NCBI GenBank assembly: GCA_949361645.1
Contig: OX442415.1
Span: forward strand, 27,307,092-27,371,091
Direction of reading: 5' to 3'
Length of the DNA stretch: 64,000 nt
From: Spongilla lacustris
Taxonomy: Eukaryota > Porifera > Demospongiae > Spongillida > Spongillidae
Shown: piece after piece, positions 560 through 57,687 of the stretch
Position numbering within the stretch: position 1 is the first letter of the stretch
Layout of the letters: each line of letters opens with the position of its first letter
Made by a program: the position numbers and the translations under genes
Notes under the pieces: model-generated
Told to the model about the DNA's origin: nothing
Databases searched by the model: none
The model's input: only the letters and a program-made list of their open reading frames with translations

Positions 560-1218
560 TTAGTCATTTAGGAGCTGCTTACTCCCTACAACCACCATCG
601 TCAGTAGTATAATCGCCGTCACTACCGTTCTCAATCTCCCCACCTCGTCGAATATATCTTGAATATCGATCGTCGTATGTCTTTGCCAGATCCGTTATCT
701 AAATAGGAGATAACGAATAAAAACTGTGACAGGGACAATACATTAAATACTTACCCATCAGATCTAGCTAGCGCAGTATGGGTGTGGCTATAAGTTATCC
801 AAGTATCGGCCCACAGGAAGTAGTTGCATATTCATGTGCTTTGATGACTGGAAGCGGGCCTCGCACGTATAACGGCGCGATTCGAGCGGGAAACGTGTAC
901 CAACTTTGCGCCGCTGTATCTCCGTAACGGATGAAATAAAAATTAACGAACAGAACAAATCGATAGGTATAGGACCTCTCTACCTACAAACCGAATTTGA
1001 AGCGATTTGATTATCCCTACAGAAAGTTATGGCGGGTTTGAACCCGGTGGGGTATCGAACGTTGCAATACTGGCACGGAGCAATTGCAAGACTCCAAAAT
1101 ATATTTTGCCATAGGGAAATGGTGTAGTATGAAGTGTTGAAAATAGGAAGTTGATAGCGTTAACCGTTCGGAAGATATAGCGATTCAAAAGAGAAGCATT
1201 TTTATAACATTATATATA
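560..1218. other. Non-coding flank of the fold-back element
   Basis: No exon is supportable here. The sequence is AT-rich, with a short TA tract (1208-1220) immediately before the transposon insertion site. The stretch at 840-1060 has the look of an old repeat (a 'tatctccgtaacgg' type phrase), but no matching partner was seen in the window. Confidence 0.5.
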
Positions 1219-4200
1219 TACAGGGTGATCCAAAAGTCGCGCAAAATCTTTGAATTGGCATAACTCCAGAACTGAACATGGTAAAATTATGCTGTTTAAA
1301 CCAAAAATCATGCCAATCATTAGCTTAAGTTATGAATGTGTAGTTATTAAAAGTTAGTTATCGGTTTATTAAAAACATGCCAATGCTATGATCAACATTC
1401 AGTACCACCCAGGAAGTGTGTAAAAATTAATTTTTATAACTATTAAAATTACTTATCACGTGATCTATCTTATATGTGGTTTTTGTGGGGAAACCCCTGC
1501 TGAAAGTCAAGCTATTGCAAATTAATCACCAATATCACGGTGAATCTATGCAAAGAAGCATCCAATAATCGTGCCAATGAACAGCTTACCATCTTGCGTG
1601 GTGACTAACGAAGCCAAACGTTTAAAACGGAGTTGATTAGTTTCTGTTAATTGACATTGTTAAAAGCTAACTTTGAATTATCAGACCTGTAGAGGAAGCC
1701 GTACTCTAATTGTGGAACTAACTTTTGTATTTTCTCCTCCACTGGAAACAAAGTTACAAACTGTCCAAGTTTGGCAGCGCTTACGCATGCGCGGAATTAT
1801 TGAACGAAAGTGGAACATGAATGTTTAGGTCTGCGTACGAGAGGTCTCACGTGAACACAATTGAATATTATCACATTCACGTGATACATTGCCGCTGTGC
1901 ACAACACAGCCCCACCCTCCTAAACTATGCTTCTCTTCAACATCATTGCGCGCACTTTTCATTCGCCTGCGCAAATGTGACCCATCAGATGCATGGGCAA
2001 ATATTGTAAAATCCAGTGTTATCAAAAATCCCCAAGCCGTGGCTAACGAGCCTATGCTTCACTGAGTTGTTCATAAAAAAAAAAAAAAGCAGAGAATCTT
2101 TATTGGACGCAAATCGTACCATACCGCGTCATTCGTTTCACAGCAGTTAGCTAGCTGTACTGGTTTTAATAACAAACCGTACTAGGTGTGCACCATTTCA
2201 ATTCGAACGTCATTTCAAATAGGCCTACCTGCGCACAAAGGCGGGAGGTGAACTTAAGCAACGAGGCAGCTTAGTACAGCGCTGCAGCTACACTAGTGCA
2301 TGCAGCCGCGTGGTCCAGAACGTGCTTCATCAAAGACGCTAGAGTACGTACGTACACATGCACGCGCATAGGTAAGTATGGGTTCAGAAATTATGTAGCG
2401 TATTCGTTCATGTTACAGACAGAATTCGTAGAAAGCAGGGTCGCTACGAGCAGGACACTTGTACGAACCCAAAAACAACTGGAGCAGCTTGCTCTGCAAT
2501 GTCCTACCACACTAACTAAGGTTCGTGTACGTGCGTGCCGGCCTCGACAGGCCTACCTGCTGTATACGTAGTCACTCTGCCTCCACCTGGACTGGAAGGT
2601 CGGGGTCTCTCCGTCTCACTTGGAGAAAAGGTCTCTCTACCCGACTGGAAGAGAGGCGTCTCTCTACCTGACTGGAAAGCAGGGGTCTCTCTACCTGACT
2701 GGAAGGCAGGGGTCTCTCTACCTGACTTGAAAAGAGGGGTCTCTCTACCTGACTGGAAGGCAGGGGTCTCTCTACCTGACTGGAAAGAGAGGGGTCTCTC
2801 TACCTGACTGGAAAGAGAGGGGTCTCTCTACCTGACTGGAACTGAAGGATGATCTCTGCCTGACACAGAGAGAGGGGGGTCTCTCTATTTGACAGAGAGA
2901 GAGAATACTTTTTTCTGTCTCACCCAGAGAGGGGTCTCTGTACCTGACAGGAAGAGAGGGGTCTCTCTACCTGACTGGATGTTAGGGGTCTCTCTAATAC
3001 CTGACTGGAACTGAAGGATGATCTCTGCCTGACACAGAGAGAGGGGTCTCTCTATCTGACAGAAAGAGATCTGTCTCAGTCAGAGAGGGTTCTGTCAATC
3101 TGTCTGGAAGAGAAGGGTCTCTCTACCTGACTGGAAGAGAGGAGTCTCTCTACCTGACTGGAACTGAAGGATGATCTCTGCCTGAGGGGTCTCTTAATTT
3201 GACAGAAAGTAAATCCTTTTTCTGTCTCATTCAGAGAGGGGTCTCTCTACCTGACTGGAAGGAAAGGGTCTCTCTGTCTCACTCAGAGACGGGGGTCTCT
3301 CTACCTGACTGGAACTGAAAGGTGATCTCTGCCTGACACAGAGAGAGGGGTCTCTCTGTCTGATAGAAAGAGAATGATTGTTCTGTCTCACTCAGAGAGG
3401 GGTCTCTCTACCTGACTGGAAGGGATGGTTTCTCTGTCTCACTTGGAGATAAGAGTCACTCTACCTGACTTGAAGACACGGGTCTCTCTACCTGACTGGA
3501 AGAGAAGGGTCTCTCCAAGACAGGGGTCTCTGTACCTGACTGGAAGAGAGGGATCTCTCTACCTGGCTGGAAGAGAGGAGTCTCTCCACCTGACTGGAAC
3601 TGAAGGATAATCTCTGCCTGAGGGTTCTTTTAATTTGACAGAAAGAAAATGCTTTTTCTGTCTCACTCAGAGAGGGGTCTCTCTACCTGACTGGAAGGGA
3701 TGGGTCTCTCCATATCACTAGGAGAGGAAGGTCTCTTTAACTGACTGGACGTAAATGGTCTCTGTCTCACTCAGAGACGGTGGTCTCTCTATCTGACTGG
3801 AACTGAAAGGTGATCTCTACCTGACTTGAACTGAAAGGTGATCTCTGTCTGACACAGAGAGAGGGGTCTCTGTCTGACAGAAAGAAAATGCTTTTTCTGT
3901 CTCACTCAGAGAGCGGTCTCTCTACCTGACTGGAAGTGAGGGATCTCTCTGTGTGACTCACACAGAGGAGTCTATCTGCTGCCCTGATACAGACAGGTCG
4001 GTCTCTCTACCCGACTGGAAGGGATGGTCTCTCCGTCTCACTTGGAGATAAGAGTCACTCTACCTGACAGGAAGAGATGGGTCTCACAGACAGGGGTCTC
4101 TGTACCTGACTTGAAAAGAAGGGTCTCTCTAACTGACCGGAAGAGAGGGGTCTCTGTACCTGACTGGATGAGTGGGGTCTCTCTACCTGACTGGAACTGA

Positions 4201-4892
4201 AGGATGATCTCTGCCTGACACAGAGAGAGGGGTCTCTCTATTTGACAGAAAGAGAATGTATTTTCTGTCTCACTCTTAGAGGGGTCTCTGTACCTGACAG
4301 GAAGAGAGGGGTCTCTCTACATGACTGGAAGAAAGGGGTCTCTTTACCTGACTGGAAGAGAGGGATCTCTCTACCTGGCTGGAAGAGAGGAGTCTCTCTA
4401 CCTGACTGGAACTGAAGGATAATCTCTGCCTTAGGGGTCTCTTAATTTGACAGAAAGAAGATGCTTTTTCTGTCTCACTCAGAGAGGGGTCTCTCTACCT
4501 GACTGGAAGGGAGGGGTCTCTCCATATCACTTGGAGAGGAAGGTCTCTTTACCTGACTGGAAGTGAATGTTCTCTCTGTCTCACTCAGAGACGGTGGTCT
4601 CTCTACCTGACTGGAACTGAAAGGTGATCTCTACCTGACTGGAACTGAAAGGTGATCTCTGTCTGACACAGAGAGAGGGGTCTCTCTGTCTGACAGAAAG
4701 AAAATGCTTTTTCTGTCTCACTCAGAGAGCGGTCTCTCTACCTGACTGGAAGTGAGGGATCTCTCTGTGTCACTCACACAGAGGAGTCTATCTGCTGCCC
4801 TGATACAGACAGGTCGGTCTCTCTACCGGACTGGAAGGGATGGTCTCTCCGTCTCACTTGGAGATAAGAGTCACTCTACCGCACTGGAAGAG

Positions 4893-5003
4893 ATGCCCTT
4901 CCCCACCGAGCCAACGTAGAAACAGGAGTCACACACGGCGTGTCTCCACCCGCCAAAGTAGACCATGCGGAAGGAAGGAACGTAGATGCGTATGACGGCG
5001 CTC
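4893..5003 (+). repeat. Unique island inside the left array
   Basis: About 110 bp of GC-rich sequence that is not part of the 27-bp repeat (starts cccttccccaccgagcc, ends gcgtatgacggcgct). An almost identical inverted copy lies at 11580-11693. It marks homologous positions in the two arms and shows that array length, not arm structure, differs between them. Confidence 0.85.
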
Positions 5004-6118
5004 ACAGACAGGGGTCTTTGTACCTGACTGGAAGAGAGGGGTCTCTGTACCTGACTGGAAGAGTGGGGTCTCTCTACCTGACTGGAACTGAAGGATGATC
5101 TCTGCCTGACACAGAGAGAGGGGTCTCTCTATTTGATAGAAAAAGAATGCTTTTTCTGTCTCACTCAGAGAGGGGTCTCTCTATCTGACAGAAAGAGAAT
5201 GCTCTTTCTTTCTTACTCAGATAGGGTTCTGTCTATCTGTCTGGAACAGAAGGGTCTCTCTACCTGACTGGAAGAGAGGAGTCTCTCTACCTGACTGGAA
5301 CTGAAGGATAATCTCTGCCTGACACACAGAGAGGTGTCTCTCTATTTGACAGAAAGAGAATGCTTTTTCTGTCTCACTCAGAGAGGGTTCTGTCTATCTG
5401 TCTGGGAGAGAAGGGTCTCTCTACCTGACTGGAAGAGAGGAGTCTCTCTACCTGGCTGGAAGAGAGGTGTCTCTGTACCTGACTGGAAGAGAGGAGTCTC
5501 TCCTCCTGACTGGAACTGAAGGATGACCTCTGCCTGAGGGATCTCTCTATCTGACAGAAAGAAAATGCTTTTTCTGTCTCACTCAGAGAGGGGCGTCTCT
5601 ACCTGACTGGAAGGGAGGGCTCTCCCCATTTCACTTGGAGTGGAAGGTCTCTCTACCTGACTGGAAGAAAGTGGTCTCTCTGTCTCACTCAGAGACGGGG
5701 GTCTTGGTCTCTCTATCTGACAGAAAGAGAATGATCTTTCTGTCTCACTCAGAGAGGGGTCTCTCTACCTGACTGGAATAGAGGGGTCTTTCTACCTGAC
5801 TGGAAGAGAGGGGTCTCTCTACCTGACTGGAAGAGAAGTGTTTCTCTACCTTACTGGAAAAGAAGGGTCTCTCTACCTGACTGAAAGAGAGGGGTCTCTC
5901 TCTACCTGACAGAAAGAGAGAGGTCTCTCTACCTGACTGGAAGAGAGGGGTCTCTCTACCTTACTGGAATAGAAGGGTCTCTCTAACTGACTGGAAGAGA
6001 AGGCCGAAGGGTCTCTGTGTCTAACTCAGATACAGGGGTCTTTGTACCTGTCTGGAAAAAAGGTGTCTCCCTACTTAACTGGAATAGAGAGGTCTCTCTA
6101 CAGGACTGGAAGAGAGGG

Positions 6119-6262
6119 ATCTCTCTATAGACACAAAGACCCTTCGCGTCCAGTAAAGTAGAGAGACCCCTCTCTTCCAATGAAATAGAGAGACCCCTCT
6201 CTTCCAGTCAGGTAGAGAGACCCCTCTTTTCAAGTCAGGTCGACAGACCCCTGTATTCAAGT
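6119..6262 (-). repeat. Local inversion within the left array
   Basis: For about 140 bp the repeats switch to the right-arm orientation (ccagtcaggtagagagacccc) and then switch back at about 6268. The flanks form a small palindrome around gtcaggtatacctgac. It is a secondary fold-back inside the array. Confidence 0.8.
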
Positions 6263-7344
6263 CAGGTATACCTGACTGGAATAGAGAGGTCTGTCGACCT
6301 GACTTGAAAAGAGGGGTCTCTCTACCTGACTGGAAGAGAGGGGTCTCTCTACCTGACTGGAACTGAAGGATGATCTCTGCCTGACACGCAGAGAGTGGTC
6401 TCTCTATTTGACAGAAAGTGAATGCTTTTTCTGTCTCACTCAGAGAGGGGTCTCTATACCTAACAGGAAGAGAGGGATCTCTCTACTGGACTGGAAGATA
6501 GGGGTCTCGTAATATTACTGGAAGAGAGGGGTCTCTGTACCTGACTGGAAGAGAGGGGTCTCTCCACCTGACTTGAAAAGAGGTGTCTCTCTATCTGACT
6601 GGAAGAGAGGGCTCTCTCTACCTGATTGGAAGAGAGCGGTCTCTCTACCTGACTGGAAGAGAGAGGTCTGTCGACCTGACTTGAAATGAGGGGTCTCTCT
6701 ACCTGACTGGAAGAGAGGGGTCTGTCTACCTGACTTGAAAAGAGAGGTCTCTCTACCTGACTGGAAGAGTAAGGTCTCTCTAGCTGACTTGAAGAGAGGG
6801 TTCTCTCTGTTTCACGCAGAGATAGAAATCCTTCTGGCTCTGTCATGCAAAGGTGTCTATCTACCTGTCTGGTCTCTCTACTTCACTGAAAGAGAATGGT
6901 CCCTATGTCTCACTCAGAGAGAGGGGTCTCTCTACCTGACAGGAAGAGTGGGATCTATCTGTGTCACTCAGACAGAGGAGTCTATCTGATTCCCTGGTAC
7001 AGACAGGTCGGTCTCTCTATGTCTCACTTGGAGATAAGAGTCACTCTACCTGACTGGAAGAGAGGGGTCTCACAGACAGAGGTCTCTGTCCCTGACTGGA
7101 AAAGAGGGGTCTCTGTACTTGACTGGAAGAGTGGGGTTTCTCTACCTGACTGGAAGGGAGGGGTATCTCCATTTCACTTGGAGAGGAAGGTCTCTCTAAC
7201 TGACTGGAAGAGAATGGTCTCTCTGTCTCACTCAGAGGCGGGGGTCTCTGTACCTGACTGGAAGAGAATGGTCTATCGTTCTCACTCGGTGATGGGGGTC
7301 TCTGTAACTGACTGGAAGAGAGGGGTGTCTCTACCAGACTGAAA

Positions 7345-8580
7345 TAGATTGTGGAGAGTTGTCAGTGTTATTTTTGTTGTTTGGTAAGGTTTGATCGAGG
7401 CATGCTGAATAGGGTAGGTTAACTTTCCTGCAGCACTTTTTGAGTGTTTGTATTGGTTCCTGCCAAAATAATTGGTCCTTATTTCCTGTGCTTTTCACAG
7501 GCTTGAATTGAAGTTTATTTTTTTGGTCCTATAAGAAGGATATAATTTTTTTATATCTCCAGATGTATTTGTGTCAGTGTATTAATGTAAGTATCTGTGT
7601 TCTGTGAGCATGTAATTGTGATAAAGTTTCAGTTTATTTGTTTATGTATTTGTTTGTGAAAATAGTGTAGTTTAAAGTATCTGTCATTTACACACACTTA
7701 TGTGTGTTCAAAATTAGTACTATGCAAGCTTAACTTTGTGCATAGGAGCATAAGAAGACTCAGATCTACATTTGGTTTCTTACCAATAAAGCCCTGCAGT
7801 GTCATAATCAATGCAAATTATTTATAGAGGTCATGGAGAGGTGTTTCAAGCCCCTCCTACTGTCTACTACTAGACATCAAAGGGATACCCACTTGCTTAC
7901 TTTCACTTCCTCTCTTTTGACTCACAATACCCCTATGCACACACTTTCCCAGGAGGAGGAAGGAAAAAGGCTCATACCTACCACACACATGCATACCCAC
8001 CTCCACAGACATGATTAAACCCCCCCACAATGCATGTAACAACTATTTTTATGCTTAAATATTCTCACTTCTGCCCCCCTCTCCACTGTACCTATCAATG
8101 CCACCCTTTCTAGATCTTTATTTCCCTGCCCGGCCTCCCATCTCGAAGGCAGAGAGGTTTATCTGTCTAACAGTTAAACGAGGTCCCTCTGAGTGTTAGC
8201 ACAGAGAGAGTGGTACTGCTAGAACCCAATACATGTAGCTCCTTCGGTACACAATTTCACAGCAGGAGATGTTCCTATACCATGTACATGTACATGTATA
8301 ACAAAAACACTTCATCTGGCAGTTTCTAAAGATTGATGTGTTAATTTAATACTCTACATACACAAAACACAGTTAGAGTCATGTGACCCTGACTACACTC
8401 CACCATGTACTATGGTTGGTGGCAGAGGAAAGGTTTAGTGTCTCCAGTCCCTTCTTCCTCCATCACTGGAGGAGAAGCATGGTCCTAGTGTGGTATAGAC
8501 AACATACGATCATACTTCTCTACCAGGTTCTCCACGTTGGGCTGCAGGTACGCAATTATAACACCACTGTCTCCTGAAGA
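7345..8580. other. Central spacer of the fold-back element
   Basis: 1.2 kb of AT-rich sequence unlike the arms, probably the loop of the fold-back. The longest open frames are about 60 codons with no recognisable motif. I see no transposase, no polyadenylation context and no internal repeat beyond a short tgtacatgtacatg run at 8283-8298. Confidence 0.6.
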
Positions 8581-8589
8581 GGGAGTAGG

Positions 8590-11500
8590 AGACTCTTCTC
8601 ATCCAGTCAGGTAGAGAGACCCCTCTCTTCCAGTCCGGTAGAAGCACCCCTCCCTTCCAGTCAGGTAGAGAGACCTCTATCGTCCAGTCAGGTAGAGAGA
8701 CCCCTCTCTTCCAGTCAGGTAGAGAGACCCCTCTCTTCCAGTCAGGTAGTGAGACACGTCTCTCCCAGTTAAGTAGAGAGACCCCTCTCTTCCAGTCAGG
8801 TACAGAGACCCCTGTCTCCGAGTAAGACAGATAGACCATTCTCTTCCAGTCAGGTACAGAGACCCCCGTCTCTGAGTGAGACGGAGAAACCAATCTCTTC
8901 CAGTCAGGTAGAGAGACATTACTCTCCAAGTGAAATGGAGAGACCCCTCCTTTCCAGTCAAGTAGAGAGACCCCTCTCTTCCAATCATGTGTAGAGACCG
9001 ACCTCTCTGTACCAGAGCAGCAGATAGACTCCTCTGTCTGAGTGACACAGACAGACCCCTCTCTTCCAGTCAGGTACAGAGACTCCTCCCTTTCAATCAG
9101 GTTGAGAGACTCTTCTTTTCCGGTCATGAAGAGAGACCCCTCTCTGAGTGAACAGAAAAAGCATTTTCTTTCTGTCAAATAGAGAGACCCCTCAGGCAGA
9201 GATCATCGTTCAGTTCTGGTCAGGTAGAGAGACCCCACACTTCCAGTCAGTTAGACATACCCCTCTCTTCCAGTCAGGTAGAGAGACCCCTCTTTTCAAG
9301 TCTGGTAGAGAGACCCAACTCTTCCAGTAAGGTAGAGAGACCCCTCTTTTCCAGTCACACCTCTTTTCAAGTCAGGTAGAAAGACCCAACTCTTCCAGTC
9401 AGGTAGAGAGACTCCTCTCTGAGTGAGAAAGAAAGAGCATTTTCTTTCTGTCAATTAGAGAGACCCCTCTCTCAGTGTCAGGCAGAGATCATCCTTCAGT
9501 TCCAGTCAGGTACAGAGACCACTCTCTTCCAGTCAGGTAGAGAGACCCTTCTCTTCCAGGCAGATAGACAGACACATCTCTGAGCGAGACAGACAGAGCA
9601 TTCTCTTTTATGTCAGATAGAGAGACCCCTCTCTCTGTGTCAGGCAGAGATAATCCTTCAGTTAAAGTCAGGTAGAGAAAACCCACACTTCCAGTCAGGT
9701 ACAGAGACCTCTCTCTTCCGGTCAGGGAGAGAGACCCTTCTCTTCCAGTCAAATAGAGACACCCCTCTTTTCCAGTCAGTTACAGAGACCCCTGTCTCTG
9801 AGTGAAACAGAGAGACCATTCTCTTCCAGTCAGGTAGAGAGACCTTCCTCTCCAAGTGAAATGGAGAGACCCCTCCCTCCCAGTCAAATAGAGACCCCTC
9901 TCGTCCAGTCATACGTAGAGACTGACCTCTCTGTACCGGAGCAACAGATAGACTCCTCTGTCAGAGTGACACAGAAAGACCCCTTACTTCCAGTCAGGTA
10001 CAGAGACTCCTCCCTTTCAATCAGGTAGAGAGACTCCTCTTTTCCGGTCATGAAGAGAGACCCCTCTCTGAGTGAGACAGAAAAAGCATTTTCTTTCTGT
10101 CAGGTAGAGAGACTCCTCTTTGCGGTCATGAAGAGAGACCCCTCTCTGAGTGAGACAGAAAAAGCATTTTCATTCTGTCAAATGGAAAGACCCCTCACTC
10201 TGTGTCTGGCAGAGATCATCGTTCAGTTCCGGTCAGGTAGAGAGACCCCTCAGTTAGATCGACCCCACTCTTCCAGTCAGGTAGAGAGACCCCTCTTTTC
10301 AAGTCAGGTAGAGATACCCAACTCGTCCAGGTAGGTAGAGAGACCCCTCTCTTCCAGTCAGGTAGAAAGACCCCTCTATTCAAGTAAGGTAGAGAGAGAC
10401 CCCTCTCGTCCAGTTAGGTAGAGAGACCCTTCTCTTCCTAACAAATAGACAGAACCCTCTCTGAGTGTGACAGAAGGAGCATTCTCTTTTATGTCACATA
10501 GAGAGGCCCCTCTCTGTGTGTCAGGCAGAGATCATCCTTCAGTTCCATTCAGGTAGAGAAACCCCACTCTTCCAGTCAGATACAGAGACCTCTCTCTTCC
10601 GGTCAGGGTGAGAGATCACTAACTTCCAGTCAGGTACAGAGACCCCTCTCTTCCAGTCAGGTAGAGAGACCCCTCTCTTCCAGTTAGGTAGAGAGACCCT
10701 ACTATTACAGTCAGGTAGAGAGACCCCTCTCTTCCAGTCAGGTAGAGAGACCGCTCTCTTATCCAGTCAGGTAGAGAGATCCCTCTCTATCAGTCAGGTA
10801 GCGAGACCCCTCTCTGAGTGAGACAGAAAGATCATACACTTTCTGTCAGATAGAGAGACCCCTCTCTCTGTGTCAGGCTGAGTTCACCTTTCAGTTTCAG
10901 TCAGGAAGCGAGACCCCCCATCTCTGAGTGAGACAGAGAGACCTTCCTCTTCCAGTCAGGTAGAGAGACCTTTCTTTCCAAGTTAAATGAAGAGACTCCT
11001 CCCTTCCAGTCAGGTAGAGCGACCCCTCTATCAGTGAGACAGAAAAAGCATTTTCTTTCTGTCAAATAGAGAGGCAGAGATCATCCTTCAGTTCCAGTCA
11101 GGTGAGAGACTCCTGCCTTCCAGTCAGGTACAGAGACACGAGACCCCTATCTTTCAGTCAGGTAGAGAGACCCCTCTCTTCCTGTCAGGTACAGAGACCC
11201 CTCTCTGAGTGAGACAGAAAAAGCATTCTCTTTCTGTCAAATAGAGAGACTCCTCTCTGTGTGTCAGGCAGAGATTATCCTTCAGTTCCAGTCAGGTAGA
11301 GAGACTCCTCTCTTCCAGTCAGGTAGAGAGACCCTTCTGTTCCAGACAGATAGACAGAACCCTATCTGAGTAAGAAAGAAAGAGCATTCTCTTTCTGTCA
11401 GATAGAGAGACCCCTCTCTGAGTGAGACAGAAAAAGCATTCTTTTTCTATCAAATAGAGAGACCCCTCTCTCTGTGTCAGGCAGAGATCATCCTTCAGTT

Positions 11501-14500
11501 CCAGTCAGGTAGAGAGACCCCACTCTTCCAGTCAGGTACAGAGACCCCTCTCTTCCAGTCAGGTACAGAGACCCCTGTCTGTGAGCGCCGTCATACGCAT
11601 CTACGTTCCTTCCTTCCGCATGGTCTACTTTGGCGGGTGGAGACACGCCGTGTGTGACTCCTGTTCCTACGTTGGCTCGGTGGGGAAGGGCATCTCTTCC
11701 AGTGCGGTAGAGTGACTCTTATCTCCAAGTGAGACGGAGAGACCATCCCTTCCAGTCCGGTAGAGAGACCGACCTGTCTGTATCAGGGCAGCAGATAGAC
11801 TCCTCTGTGTGAGTGACACAGAGAGATCCCTCACTTCCAGTTAGGTAGAGAGACCGCTCTCTGAGTGAGACAGAAAAAGCATTTTCTTTCTGTCAGACAG
11901 AGAGACCCCTCTCTCCGTGTCAGACAGAGATCACCTTTCAGTTCCAGTCAGGTAGAGATCACCTTTCAGTTCCAGTCAGGTAGAGAGACCACCGTCTCTG
12001 AGTGAGACAGAGAGAACATTCACTTCCAGTCAGGTAAAGAGACCTTCCTCTCCAAGTGATATGGAGAGACCCCTCCCTTCCAGTCAGGTAGAGAGACCCC
12101 TCTCTGAGTGAGACAGAAAAAGCATCTTCTTTCTGTCAAATTAAGAGACCCCTAAGGCAGAGATTATCCTTCAGTTCCAGTCAGGTAGAGAGACTCCTCT
12201 CTTCCAGCCAGGTAGAGAGATCCCTCTCTTCCAGTCAGGTAAAGAGACCCCTTTCTTCCAGTCATGTAGAGAGACCCCTCTCTTCCTGTCAGGTACAGAG
12301 ACCCCTCTAAGAGTGAGACAGAAAATACATTCTCTTTCTGTCAAATAGAGAGACCCCTCTCTCTGTGTCAGGCAGAGATCATCCTTCAGTTCCAGTCAGG
12401 TAGAGAGACCCCACTCATCCAGTCAGGTACAGAGACCCCTCTTTTCCGGTCAGTTAGAGAGACCCTGCTCTTCCAGTCAAGTAGAGAGACCCTTCTTTTC
12501 CAGTCAGGTACAGAGACCCCTGTCTGTGAGACCCATCTCTTCCTGTCAGGTAGAGTGACTCTTATCTCCAAGTGAGACGGAGAGACCATCCCTTCCAGTC
12601 CGGTAGAGAGACCGACCTGTCTGTATCAGGGCAGCAGATAGACTCCTCTGTGTGAGTCACACAGAGAGATCCCTCACTTCCAGTCAGGTAGAGAGACCGC
12701 TCTCTGAGTGAGACAGAAAAAGCATTTTCTTTCTGTCAGACAGAGACCCCTCTCTCTGTGTCAGACAGAGATCACCTTTCAGTTCAAGTCAGGTAGAGAT
12801 CACCTTTCAGTTCCAGTCAGATAGAGAGACCACCGTCTCTGAGTGAGACAGAGACCATTTACGTCCAGTCAGGTAAAGAGACCTTCCTCTCCTAGTGATA
12901 TGGAGAGACCCATCCCTTCCAGTCAGGTAGCGAGACCCCTCTCTGAGTGAGACAGAAAAAGCATTTTCTTTCTGTCAAATTAAAAGAACCCTCAGGCAGA
13001 GATTATCCTTCAGTTCCAGTCAGGTGGAGAGACTCCTCTCTTCCAGCCAGGTAGAGAGATCCCTCTCTTCCAGTCAGGTACAGAGACCCCTGTCTGAGAG
13101 ACCCTTCTCTTCCAGTAAGGTAGAGAGACCACTGTAATCCAGTGAGGTAGAGTAACTCTTATCTCCAAGTGAGACGGAGAGACCATCTCTTCTAGTCAGG
13201 TAGAGAAACCCCTCTCTGAGTGAGACAGAAAGATCACTCTCTTTCTGTCAGACAGAGAGACCTCTCTCTCTGTGTCAGGCAGAGATCACCTTTCAGTTCC
13301 AGTCAGGAAGACAGACCCCCGTATCTGAGTGAGACAGAGAGACCATTCTCTTCCAGTCAGGTAAAGAGACCTTCCTCTCCAAGTGAAATTGAGAAACCCC
13401 TCCCTTCCAGTCAGGTAGAGAGACTCCTCTCTGAGTGAGACAGAAAAAGCATTTTCTTTCTGTCAAATTAAGAGACCTCTCAGGCAGAGATCCAGTCAGG
13501 TAGAGAGACCCCACTCTTCTAGTCAGGTACAGAGACCCCTCTCCTCCAGTCAGGTAGAGAGACCCCTCTTTTCCAGTCAGGTAGAGAGATCTCTCTCTAT
13601 CAGTCAGGTAGCGAGACCCCTCTCTGAGTGCGACAGAAAGATCATTCTTTTTCTGTCCGATAGAGAGACCCCTCTCTCTGTGTCAGGCAGAGATCACCTT
13701 TCAGTTCCAGTCAAGAAGCGAGACCCCCCGTCTCTGAGTGAGACAGAGAGACCTTTCTCTTCCAGTCAGGTAGAGAGACCCCTCTCTGAGTGCGACAGAA
13801 AAAGCATTTTCTTTCTGTCAAATAGACAGAACCCTCAGGCAGAGATCATTCTTCAGTTCCAGTCAGGTAGAGAGACTCAGGTACAGAGACACCTCTCTTC
13901 CAGTCAGGTAGAGAGACCCCTCACTGAGTGAGACAGAAAAAGCATTCTCTCTGTCAAATAGAGAGACCCCTCTCTGTGTGTCAGGCAGAGATCATCCTTC
14001 AGTTCCAGTCAGGTAGAGAGACTCCTCTCTTCCAGTCAGGTAGAGAGACCCTTCTCTTCCAGACAGATAGGCAGAACCATATCTGAGTGAGAAAGAAAGA
14101 GCATTCTCTTTCTGTCAGATAGAGAGAACCCTCTCTGACTGAGACAGAAAAAGCATTCTCTTTCTGTCAGATAGAGAGACCCCTCTCTCTGTGTCAGGCA
14201 GAGATCATCCTTCAGTTCCAGTCAGGTAGAGAGACCCCATACTTCCAGTCAGGTACAGAGACCCCTCTCTTCCGGTCAGGTAGAGAGACCCTACTTATCC
14301 AGTCCAGTAGAGAGACCTGTCTTTTTCAGTCAGGTACAGAGACCCCTGTCTTGGAGAGACCCTTCTCTTCCAGTCAGGTAGAGAGACCCGTGTCTTCAAG
14401 TCAGGTAGAGTGACTCTTATCTCCAAGTGAGACAGAGAAACCATCCCTTCCAGTCAGGTAGAGAGACCCCTCTCTGAGTGAGACAGAACAATCATTCTCT

Positions 14501-15265
14501 TTCTATCAGACAGAGAGACCCCTCTCTCTGTGTCAGGCAGAGATCACCTTTCAGTTCCAGTCAGGTAGAGAGACCCCCGTCTCTGAGTGAGACAGAGAGA
14601 CCCTTTCCTTCCAGTCAGGTAGAGAGACCCCTCTCTGAGTGAGACAGAAAAAGGATTTACTTTCTGTCAAATTAAGAGACCCCTCAGGCAGAGATCATCC
14701 TTCAGTTCCAGTCAGGTAGAGAGACTCCTCTCTTCCAGTCAGGTAGAGAGACCCTTCTCTTCCAGACAGATTGACAGAACCCTCTCTGACTGAGACAGAT
14801 CTCTTTCTGTCAGATAGAGAGACCCCTCTCTCTGTGTCAGGCAGAGATCATCCTTCAGTTCCAGTCAGGTATTAGAGAGACCCCTAACATCCAGTCAGGT
14901 AGAGAGACCCCTCTCTTCCTGTCAGGTACAGAGACCCCTCTCTGGGTGAGACAGAAAAAAGTATTCTCTCTCTCTGTCAAATAGAGAGACCCCCCTCTCT
15001 CTGTGTCAGGCAGAGATCATCCTTCAGTTCCAGTCAGGTAGAGAGACCCCTCTCTTTCCAGTCAGGTAGAGAGACCCCTCTCTTTCCAGTCAGGTAGAGA
15101 GACCCCTGCCTTCCAGTCAGGTAGAGAGACCCCTCTTTTCAAGTCAGGTAGAGAGACCCCTGCCTTCCAGTCAGGTAGAGAGACCCCTGCTTTCCAGTCA
15201 GGTAGAGAGACGCCTCTCTTCCAGTCGGGTAGAGAGACCTTTTCTCCAAGTGAGACGGAGAGACC
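8590..15265 (-). repeat. 27-bp tandem array, right arm
   Basis: Same repeat family as the left arm in the opposite orientation (unit begins tctcttccagtcaggtagag), with the same higher-order modules in mirror order. Total array DNA in the two arms is about 11 kb. Periodic peptides read from it are artefacts of a repeat length that is a multiple of three. Confidence 0.9.
11580..11693 (-). repeat. Unique island inside the right array
   Basis: Reverse-complement partner of 4893-5003, with a one-base difference visible (gttcctacgttgg against the reverse of ccaacgtagaaac). If register had been kept, the mirror position would be about 1.28 kb further right, so this much repeat DNA was gained on the right or lost on the left. 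Confidence 0.85.
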
Positions 15266-17764
15266 CCGACCTTCCAGTCCAGGTGGAGGCAGAGTGACTA
15301 CGTATACAGCAGGTAGGCCTGTCGAGGCCGGCACGCACGTACACGAACCTTAGTTAGTGTGGTAGGACATTGCAGAGCAAGCTGCTCCAGTTGTTTTTGG
15401 GTTCGTACAAGTGTCCTGCTCGTAGCGACCCTGCTTTCTACGAATTCTGTCTGTAACATGAACGAATACGCTACATAATTTCTGAACCCATACTTACCTA
15501 TGCGCGTGCATGTGTACGTACGTACTCTAGCGTCTTTGATGAAGCACGTTCTGGACCACGCGGCTGCATGCACTAGTGTAGCTGCAGCGCTGTACTAAGC
15601 TGCCTCGTTGCTTAAGTTCACCTCCCGCCTTTGTGCGCAGGTAGGCCTATTTGAAATGACGTTCGAATTGAAATGGTGCACACCTAGTACGGTTTGTTAT
15701 TAAAACCAGTACAGCTAGCTAACTGCTGTGAAACGAATGACGCGGTATGGTACGATTTGCGTCCAATAAAGATTCTCTGCTTTTTTTTTTTTTTATGAAC
15801 AACTCAGTGAAGCATAGGCTCGTTAGCCACGGCTTGGGGATTTTTGATAACACTGGATTTTACAATATTTGCCCATGCATCTGATGGGTCACATTTGCGC
15901 AGGCGAATGAAAAGTGCGCGCAATGATGTTGAAGAGAAGCATAGTTTAGGAGGGTGGGGCTGTGTTGTGCACAGCGGCAATGTATCACGTGAATGTGATA
16001 ATATTCAATTGTGTTCACGTGAGACCTCTCGTACGCAGACCTAAACATTCATGTTCCACTTTCGTTCAATAATTCCGCGCATGCGTAAGCGCTGCCAAAC
16101 TTGGACAGTTTGTAACTTTGTTTCCAGTGGAGGAGAAAATACAAAAGTTAGTTCCACAATTAGAGTACGGCTTCCTCTACAGGTCTGATAATTCAAAGTT
16201 AGCTTTTAACAATGTCAATTAACAGAAACTAATCAACTCCGTTTTAAACGTTTGGCTTCGTTAGTCACCACGCAAGATGGTAAGCTGTTCATTGGCACGA
16301 TTATTGGATGCTTCTTTGCATAGATTCACCGTGATATTGGTGATTAATTTGCAATAGCTTGACTTTCAGCAGGGGTTTCCCCACAAAAACCACATATAAG
16401 ATAGATCACGTGATAAGTAATTTTAATAGTTATAAAAATTAATTTTTACACACTTCCTGGGTGGTACTGAATGTTGATCATAGCATTGGCATGTTTTTAA
16501 TAAACCGATAACTAACTTTTAATAACTACACATTCATAACTTAAGCTAATGATTGGCATGATTTTTGGTTTAAACAGCATAATTTTACCATGTTCAGTTC
16601 TGGAGTTATGCCAATTCAAAGATTTTGCGCGACTTTTGGATCACCCTGTATATGCGAAACGACATTTTCTCGGAAACTGTCCCATATATATATTATATAT
16701 ATATATATATTGGTTCAATTACTCACGCGACATGTCCAATATTGGTTCAATTACATCACGCGACACGAAGTTCTCTAAAGGCGAGTGAGTTCAGGAACTA
16801 TTAGCGATCACTTTTCAAGGCCAAAAACTTTCATACAAGGTTGGTTCCGTTTTTTTCTATCCATTTGGTGATCCGCGTGGTACGAGGTTATAGTCTGCCG
16901 TCCCTGTATTGAAAACAATCTTGTAATCCATCTGGCCCTCCGTGAAAAGGGTAAAAAGGAACACCAGCGACATAAATAAGCTCTCTATCATACCTGGGTG
17001 TAATAGGACTGATTTGACTTCACCTCGTTTTTTGTCATTATCGCTATGCTATGTTTAACGGCATGGCTTGCTTGAAGCTTACACCAGACCTGGTGCTATT
17101 ATAAGCTGATGCATTAGTACCAGCAATCATTCAAATATAACATACAGATCTGAACCATTAATATTCCGCTAACCAATTAATACACTGGCCGTTTTTCACA
17201 ACCATATACCGCGTGGATTGCATCGAGCTGCCAATTTTCTCACTGGTAGGTTCGACATAAATAGGTACTTTAATAAATTTTTGAAAATTAATATAATGAG
17301 AACTTTTATGTATAGCCTAACAGAGCAAAATGAATGCATCAAAAATATGCTTTTGCCAATGAAAACAGATTAGTATTTCAAAAGTTATAGCGTTTCAAAC
17401 ATTGCATCGCCGGTGACTAACAATGTACGCAATGTGAATGGACCCCGATATAAAAAACTGTGACCGCTTGACTTCTCCGTGCAGCTGCTGTACAAGTATT
17501 CAAGATAATGATGCCACAATTGCATAAAATACAACATAGATACTCTTGATAAGGCTCACAGTGTCAAATACACATTGCAACTAAATTTAGGTCTCCCTTT
17601 ATACAATCCACTGCCAATAGCCCATATAGTGATATTGTAATGTTTTCTCCTTTTACTTCACCGTCATTCTTCCAATATGTAATAATTACTTTTGGACTTC
17701 TTTGATTGCTTTACAATATTATATAGCTGCTACCATAGCTGTTCAAAATACAGACCATTAATAA

Positions 17765-31131: not shown

Positions 31132-44366
<13,235 letters not shown>

Positions 44367-47819: not shown

Positions 47820-49162
47820 CAACCAACCAACCAACCAACCAACCAACCAACCAACCAACCAACCAACCAACCAACCAACCAACCAACCAACCAACCAACC
47901 AACCAACCAACCAACCAACCAACCAACCAACCAACCAACCAACCAACCAACCAACCAACCAACCAACCAACCAACCAACCAACCAACCAACCAACCAACC
48001 AACCAACCAACCAACCAACCAACCAACCAACCAACCAACCAACCAACCAACCAACCAACCAACCAACCAACCAACCAACCAACCAACCAACCAACCAACC
48101 AACCAACCAACCAACCAACCAACCAACCAACCAACCAACCAACCAACCAACCAACCAACCAACCAACCAACCAACCAACCAACCAACCAACCAACCAACC
48201 AACCAACCAACCAACCAACCAACCAACCAACCAACCAACCAACCAACCAACCAACCAACCAACCAACCAACCAACCAACCAACCAACCAACCAACCAACC
48301 AACCAACCAACCAACCAACCAACCAACCAACCAACCAACCAACCAACCAACCAACCAACCAACCAACCAACCAACCAACCAACCAACCAACCAACCAACC
48401 AACCAACCAACCAACCAACCAACCAACCAACCAACCAACCAACCAACCAACCAACCAACCAACCAACCAACCAACCAACCAACCAACCAACCAACCAACC
48501 AACCAACCAACCAACCAACCAACCAACCAACCAACCAACCAACCAACCAACCAACCAACCAACCAACCAACCAACCAACCAACCAACCAACCAACCAACC
48601 AACCAACCAACCAACCAACCAACCAACCAACCAACCAACCAACCAACCAACCAACCAACCAACCAACCAACCAACCAACCAACCAACCAACCAACCAACC
48701 AACCAACCAACCAACCAACCAACCAACCAACCAACCAACCAACCAACCAACCAACCAACCAACCAACCAACCAACCAACCAACCAACCAACCAACCAACC
48801 AACCAACCAACCAACCAACCAACCAACCAACCAACCAACCAACCAACCAACCAACCAACCAACCAACCAACCAACCAACCAACCAACCAACCAACCAACC
48901 AACCAACCAACCAACCAACCAACCAACCAACCAACCAACCAACCAACCAACCAACCAACCAACCAACCAACCAACCAACCAACCAACCAACCAACCAACC
49001 AACCAACCAACCAACCAACCAACCAACCAACCAACCAACCAACCAACCAACCAACCAACCAACCAACCAACCAACCAACCAACCAACCAACCAACCAACC
49101 AACCAACCAACCAACCAACCAACCAACCAACCAACCAACCAACCAACCAACCAACCAACCAA
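47820..49162 (+). repeat. AACC tetranucleotide array, 1343 bp, perfect
   Basis: About 335 units of AACC without one substitution. Every frame on both strands stays open and yields NQPT or VGWL polypeptides, which are artefacts. Confidence 0.98.
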
Positions 49163-57217: not shown

Positions 57218-57652
<435 letters not shown>

Positions 57653-57687
57653 TCCTCTATTTGTCACCTTTAAATAATTCATCTTCA

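Follow-up and report, generated by a model that had tools for sequence, protein, structure and literature searches.

Tc1/mariner transposons of the DD41D group (rosa, Visitor and LTIR) typically insert at TA, and small elements are usually regarded as the ones best suited to transposition by mariner. Long inverted arms with short tandem repeats are found in the TU elements of sea urchin, which make 8-bp target duplications. According to the available portions of the published descriptions, Tc1/mariner elements usually measure 1-5 kb with terminal inverted repeats (TIRs) of 13-600 bp, the ends of rosa begin with AAGGGTGTCTCAAAAAG, the TIRs of LTIR members measure 460-466 bp, the aphid DD41D/DD40D elements are 1.3-2.4 kb long (PMC5490172) and the intact ones of bees 1.0-2.3 kb (PMC8472432). 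Galileo is described as a member of the P superfamily with 7-bp bounding sequences, internal tandem repeats in long inverted repeats and long-armed non-autonomous copies, the TIRs in Drosophila mojavensis ranging from 18 to 1250 bp with up to three internal repeats (PMC3573991); Tetris is a Foldback transposon tied to a satellite of D. virilis (PMC4079207). Here we report on a 15.4-kb element with satellite-filled inverted arms, located in a stretch of 64,000 nucleotides of the sponge Spongilla lacustris (contig OX442415.1, here C1, positions 27307092-27371091; referred to below as the window), and on its relatives in the genome searched (248.6 Mb in 51 contigs). The mitochondrial COI of this genome, in which TGA is read as Trp, finds its closest named counterpart in a Demospongiae cluster (95%), so that a demosponge is the probable host.

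The element of the window represents one of two types with common ends, designated type A; the other, type B, carries a transposase gene. Taken together, the data make it very probable that type A is a non-autonomous Tc1/mariner transposon of the DD41D branch, derived from a type-B-like element, most likely mobilized in trans and with arms probably kept alike by copying.

Ends, target site and copies in the genome

The window element spans positions 1221-16648 (15,428 bp) with TA outside both ends. When its flanks were joined minus one TA and searched in the genome (40 of 3320 candidates scored), 54 of the 56 listed matches ran uninterrupted through the joint, with identities of up to 100% over 153 bp with no gap. 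These matches are paralogous empty sites of a dispersed repeat, and because the joined flanks match uninterrupted copies of it, both element ends and the TA duplication are fixed exactly. The proposal of an earlier note, made from the sequence without database searches, that a single mariner-type mobile element with TA-flanked ends lies here is thereby borne out; the empty TA site that it suggested seeking in another haplotype was found in paralogous repeat copies instead. The element would have entered one copy of the repeat by cut-and-paste insertion at a TA. The interrupted repeat (window 1111-1220 and 16651-16820) is partly palindromic and ATATAT-rich, and similar sequence stands beside some other copies of the element. 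TA was present on both sides in all 20 elements with both flanks examined, and the surrounding bases show a preference for palindromic, AT-rich sequence; one of the 20, at C1:8147040, is flanked by mirror-image sequence and hence uninformative for the target site.

The search for further copies, suggested in the earlier note, found the 22-bp end with its TA 90 + 83 times (173 matches with at most two mismatches, individual places being given for 100 of them; reversed-pattern control, 0). A 39-bp pattern split the ends into type A, that of the window (42 + 44), and type B (32 + 30; at most one mismatch). Under the rule that a plus end is paired when the next end is a minus end within 40 kb, 118 of the 148 typed ends formed 59 pairs, 33 A-A and 26 B-B, and none was mixed. 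Type A elements are 11.5-17.5 kb long (median 15.9 kb) and type B elements 5.0-25.9 kb (median 17.5 kb); with their kilobase arms both depart from the usual Tc1/mariner size, which is a typical rather than a defining feature. Some of the length is added by nested insertion, as in the 25.9-kb type B copy whose left arm is broken 47 bp from the end. Two facing type A ends that share a one-base variant, C1:29058436 (+) and C1:29119350 (-), stand 60.9 kb apart; they may bound a very long mobile unit or result from nested insertion. Elsewhere a gap of about 225 bp separates two transposase-bearing type B elements (C3:2913564-2935545 and C3:2935770-2950475).

Mirror positions in the window element sum to 17869, as the earlier note had calculated: the two sides are complementary for 2009 bp (1221-3229), mismatch at 3230 and are complementary again for 312 bp (3231-3542), with no indel over 1221-3542, and the mirror continues just 5 bases past the element ends. 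Aligned by BLAST, the arms are 99.4% identical over 2.38 kb, falling to 93% in the next 2.8 kb. Such a palindrome might have been created by fold-back read joining during assembly, or by two unrelated insertions, the latter having been named in the earlier note, together with copies ending elsewhere, as what would speak against a single element. Perfect mirroring of the flanks, expected of an artefact as well as of a real inverted duplication, was indeed seen around the type A copy at C1:8147040 (1502 bp, 0 mismatches). In the window, however, the flanks are unmirrored (1101 mismatches in 1502 positions) and the arms diverge inwards, and both the empty sites for this insertion and the 59 end pairs genome-wide oppose the two explanations. 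On the strength of the empty sites, the pairs and the unmirrored flanks we reject them for the window, where they would be very surprising. Neither of the two outcomes that the note had named as contrary to a single element was seen. At C1:8147040-8164011 (L009/L010) the mirror comprises 3022 bp including arms, as could come either from faulty assembly or from a genuine inverted duplication with a fold-back element at its centre; at a distance of 5 kb the flanks show 113 mismatches per 150 positions in register, a register open to shift by any indel.

The DD41D transposase of type B

The autonomous relative with the same ends that the earlier note had recommended looking for was found in type B: with 103 of 209 candidates scored, a Tc1/mariner-type transposase gene is present in 23 of the 26 paired type B elements and in none of the 33 paired type A elements. 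The three type B elements lacking it are short (5.0, 6.4 and 7.6 kb), the gene-bearing ones measuring 14.7-25.9 kb. Nine of the 32 mapped places of close transposase matches fall outside paired elements. When the reference protein (P0001) is aligned with Sleeping Beauty SB100X, its residues D206, D297 and D339 fall on the D, D and E that we take to be the catalytic residues of SB100X, and 41 residues separate D297 from D339. The same spacing occurs in 76 of the 78 homologues in which both searched motifs were found. Pfam returned DUF4817 above its cut-off (26.9 vs 22.6 bits) and HTH_Tnp_Tc3_2 below (26.8 vs 31.5 bits), from which we took the protein to possess the N-terminal helix-turn-helix of Tc1/mariner transposases. 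By its spacing and its alignment with SB100X the predicted enzyme is assigned to the DD41D branch of Tc1/mariner and is rosa/Visitor-like. A hand count gave at least eight copies, among those listed, in which no stop interrupts the frame between M47 and residue 403. The ratio of nonsynonymous to synonymous substitution rates was 0.13-0.80 in all 15 pairs of six copies, the pairs being non-independent, with few changes and with stop codons skipped.

A further DD41D family is represented by a transposase 49% identical to P0001 at L060 (C4:4009700-4013300); it shares sequence with L062 (C10:4819500-4828500), where a 141-bp satellite stands in inverted arrays. The ends of this L060/L062 family were looked for and not found.

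Inverted arms that are long, repetitive inside and variable in size might suggest a true Galileo or Foldback element of the P superfamily. We regard this as next to inconceivable, since elements with the same ends show a TA duplication and a DD41D transposase instead of a longer duplication and a P-superfamily enzyme, and membership was rejected on these grounds. The similarity to Galileo and Foldback concerns layout, long inverted arms with internal tandem repeats, and not descent; here the target is TA, the transposase DD41D and the arms several kilobases long with dozens of units. The combination of a Foldback/Galileo-like layout with a TA target announced in the earlier note has thus held up, as inverted satellite arms with a TA duplication and a DD41D transposase in the sister type.

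Relationship of type A to type B

The terminal 27 bp of the two types are identical, and their outer TIRs are 72-74% identical over about 1.3 kb and 80-83% over the outer 800 bp. Further inside, blocks of the type A core resemble type B at about 61-76%, two of them, of which one is inverted, corresponding to one flank of the transposase gene and a third to sequence beyond its other flank, with the gene itself absent. Part of this third block (window 8321-8523) also matches a second place on the first side of the gene at about 62%. The type B transposase had no match in the window copy and one chance-level match (E 0.89) in a second type A copy, C2:4931079; none of the 109 transposase matches listed, whatever their identity, lies within a paired type A element. 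No gene was found in the type A core, and the longest reading frames of the window element are mostly satellite. Because termini and outer TIRs are shared, core blocks come from both sides of the gene and the gene is missing, type A looks like an old non-autonomous deletion derivative of a type-B-like autonomous element, an ancestor that would have lost its transposase gene and given rise to a type that has since multiplied.

Judged from the sequences, the likeliest source of the enzyme that moves type A in trans is the set of gene-bearing type B elements, which encode a DD41D transposase and possess the same terminal 27 bp. Type A might instead be served by another DD41D transposase of the genome or be no longer mobile: many transposase relatives are about 46-49% identical to P0001, some with open frames, and the outer TIRs of A and B differ by about 18% over 800 bp. 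We consider this unlikely, given the identity of the terminal 27 bp and the small difference between TIRs of different type A copies (median 0.64%), which suggests recent movement; it keeps some weight in that the termini of the other DD41D families were looked for and not found. Mobilization by the type B enzyme remains the preferred reading, and the system may be active at present.

Arms and satellites

In both types the kilobase inverted arms appear to be made of an outer TIR and a satellite array of variable length. The earlier note had described the arms as filled with the 27-bp tandem repeat; this applies to their inner part, the arrays of the window element beginning about 1.4 kb inside each end, and neither the outer 1.4 kb nor the core is satellite. 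Of 98 exact matches to a 46-mer of the type A satellite, 76 lie in paired type A elements (with one or more in each of the 33), 15 are close to type A ends that have no partner, none is in a paired type B element and 7 are elsewhere. Their orientation is that of inverted arms in 73 of the 76, the other three standing just left of the midpoint. The seven matches elsewhere lie at C17:2973519-2984246 and C9:8216907, where the satellite occurs with no listed type A end and may belong to decayed or truncated copies or to arrays outside elements. In the type B copies read, the arms carry a 180-bp satellite from about 1.4 kb inside, inverted between the sides where both arms have it; the two shortest have it on one side or continuously, and the centre of several copies holds a 26-bp satellite of variable length.

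The outer TIRs of one element are more alike than those of different elements: the median left-right divergence was 0.21% within type A elements (12 elements) vs 0.64% between them, and 0.13% within type B (8 elements, one arm interrupted) vs 1.5%. Compared with the nearest arm of any sampled element (the interrupted one excluded), the own left and right outer TIRs were the closest in 13 of 19 elements. Within the satellite stretch at window 2630-3542 a single base departs from the mirror, and C2:4931079 differs there by 4-6%. These comparisons suggest that arm-to-arm copying within an element, by fold-back or gene-conversion-like repair, probably keeps the arms alike.

A common origin of the type A 27-bp, type B 180-bp and L062 141-bp satellites was considered and rejected, as shuffled sequences scored as well: at least as good in 276 of 300 for 27 vs 180 bp, 140 of 300 for 27 vs 141 bp and 31 of 100 for 180 vs 141 bp. 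The type B central 26-bp satellite gave weak signals with the 27-bp (6 of 500) and the 141-bp unit (2 of 300), which, coming from five tests, were not used.

Several points weigh against the interpretation developed so far. Thirty of the 148 typed ends have no partner under the pairing rule, 103 of the 209 candidates were scored for the transposase, and the type A copies read whole are two, that of the window and C2:4931079, which have core and arms in common at 93-97% in the main blocks and at most 90% in parts of the satellite. A similarity to type B of about 61-76% in the core implies that the derivation is old or that it started from a relative of type B. The own arms tie with those of another element in three of the 19 cases and are less alike in three more, hence arm copying is not general, and recent insertion alone could account for part of the likeness.

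Comparison with described elements

The ends start with CAGGGTGATCCAAAAG, resembling the rosa AAGGGTGTCTCAAAAAG, and the DD41D spacing is common to rosa, Visitor and LTIR as far as their accessible descriptions go. In contrast to the aphid and bee elements, as given in the same partial sources, the elements found here measure 5-26 kb and have kilobase satellite arms. Tetris, likened here by its title-level description, also joins a Foldback transposon to satellite DNA, in another host. Among the papers listed by a literature search covering titles and abstract openings, with subscription papers and repeat databases outside its scope, none describes a Tc1/mariner element with kilobase satellite arms. 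The earlier suggestion of an undescribed family is therefore retained for size and architecture and given up for the enzyme: the superfamily and the DD41D transposase are already known, and the giant size and satellite-arm layout are what is unusual.

Stop-free transposases within 15-26 kb elements, together with the low outer-TIR divergence between copies, suggest recent movement of such cargo. Dozens of similar copies allow fold-back arm growth, satellite spread and homogenization of palindromic arms to be examined, and the kilobase palindromes are natural sites for studying hairpin-driven rearrangement. Tentatively, and with slightly less than even confidence, we propose that a DD41D branch in the sponge has given rise to giant satellite-armed fold-back transposons, each family having its own satellite (27-, 180- and 141-bp units), with arm copying building and homogenizing the arrays and transposition spreading them as inverted arrays. 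If true, another superfamily would have produced a convergent counterpart of Galileo and Foldback, and satellites would have a route by which to be seeded across a genome.

Layout of the element and other features of the window

The layout of the window element is given in Table 1. An Rfam search of the window found nothing that reached the gathering scores.

Table 1 Features of the type A element of the window (positions in window coordinates)
Feature	Position	Strand	Remark
TA, left copy of target-site duplication	1219..1220		single in paralogous empty sites
Left terminal 27 bp, the same in types A and B	1221..1247	+	likely recognized by transposase
Left outer TIR, non-satellite	1221..2629	+	74% like the type B TIR over the first 1295 bp
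Left satellite arm, 27-bp unit GGTCTCTCTACCTGACTGGAAGAGAGG	2630..7341	+	inverted patch at 6137-6268
Non-satellite core, no transposase match	about 7345..8584		
Core block like type B, one side of transposase gene, inverted	7442..7689	-	about 65%
Core block like type B, same side of gene as 7442..7689 match	7795..8144	+	about 66%; about 97 bp at 87-90%
Core block like type B, beyond other side of gene	8352..8588	+	about 66%
Right satellite arm, 27-bp unit GGTCTCTCTACCTGACTGGAAGAGAGG in opposite orientation	8585..15239	-	
Right outer TIR	15240..16648	-	perfect mirror of 1221-2629
Right terminal 27 bp, mirror copy	16622..16648	-	
TA, right copy of target-site duplication	16649..16650		single in paralogous empty sites

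Outside the element the window contains three tetranucleotide arrays: GAGG at 36168-36762 (100% pure), CAAC at 47820-49162 (100% pure, 1.3 kb) and ATCT at 57231-57654 (96%). An open frame at 31132-31779, which may be the opening exon of a host gene, encodes a trefoil domain (PF00088, E 2e-7) and what is probably a membrane segment.

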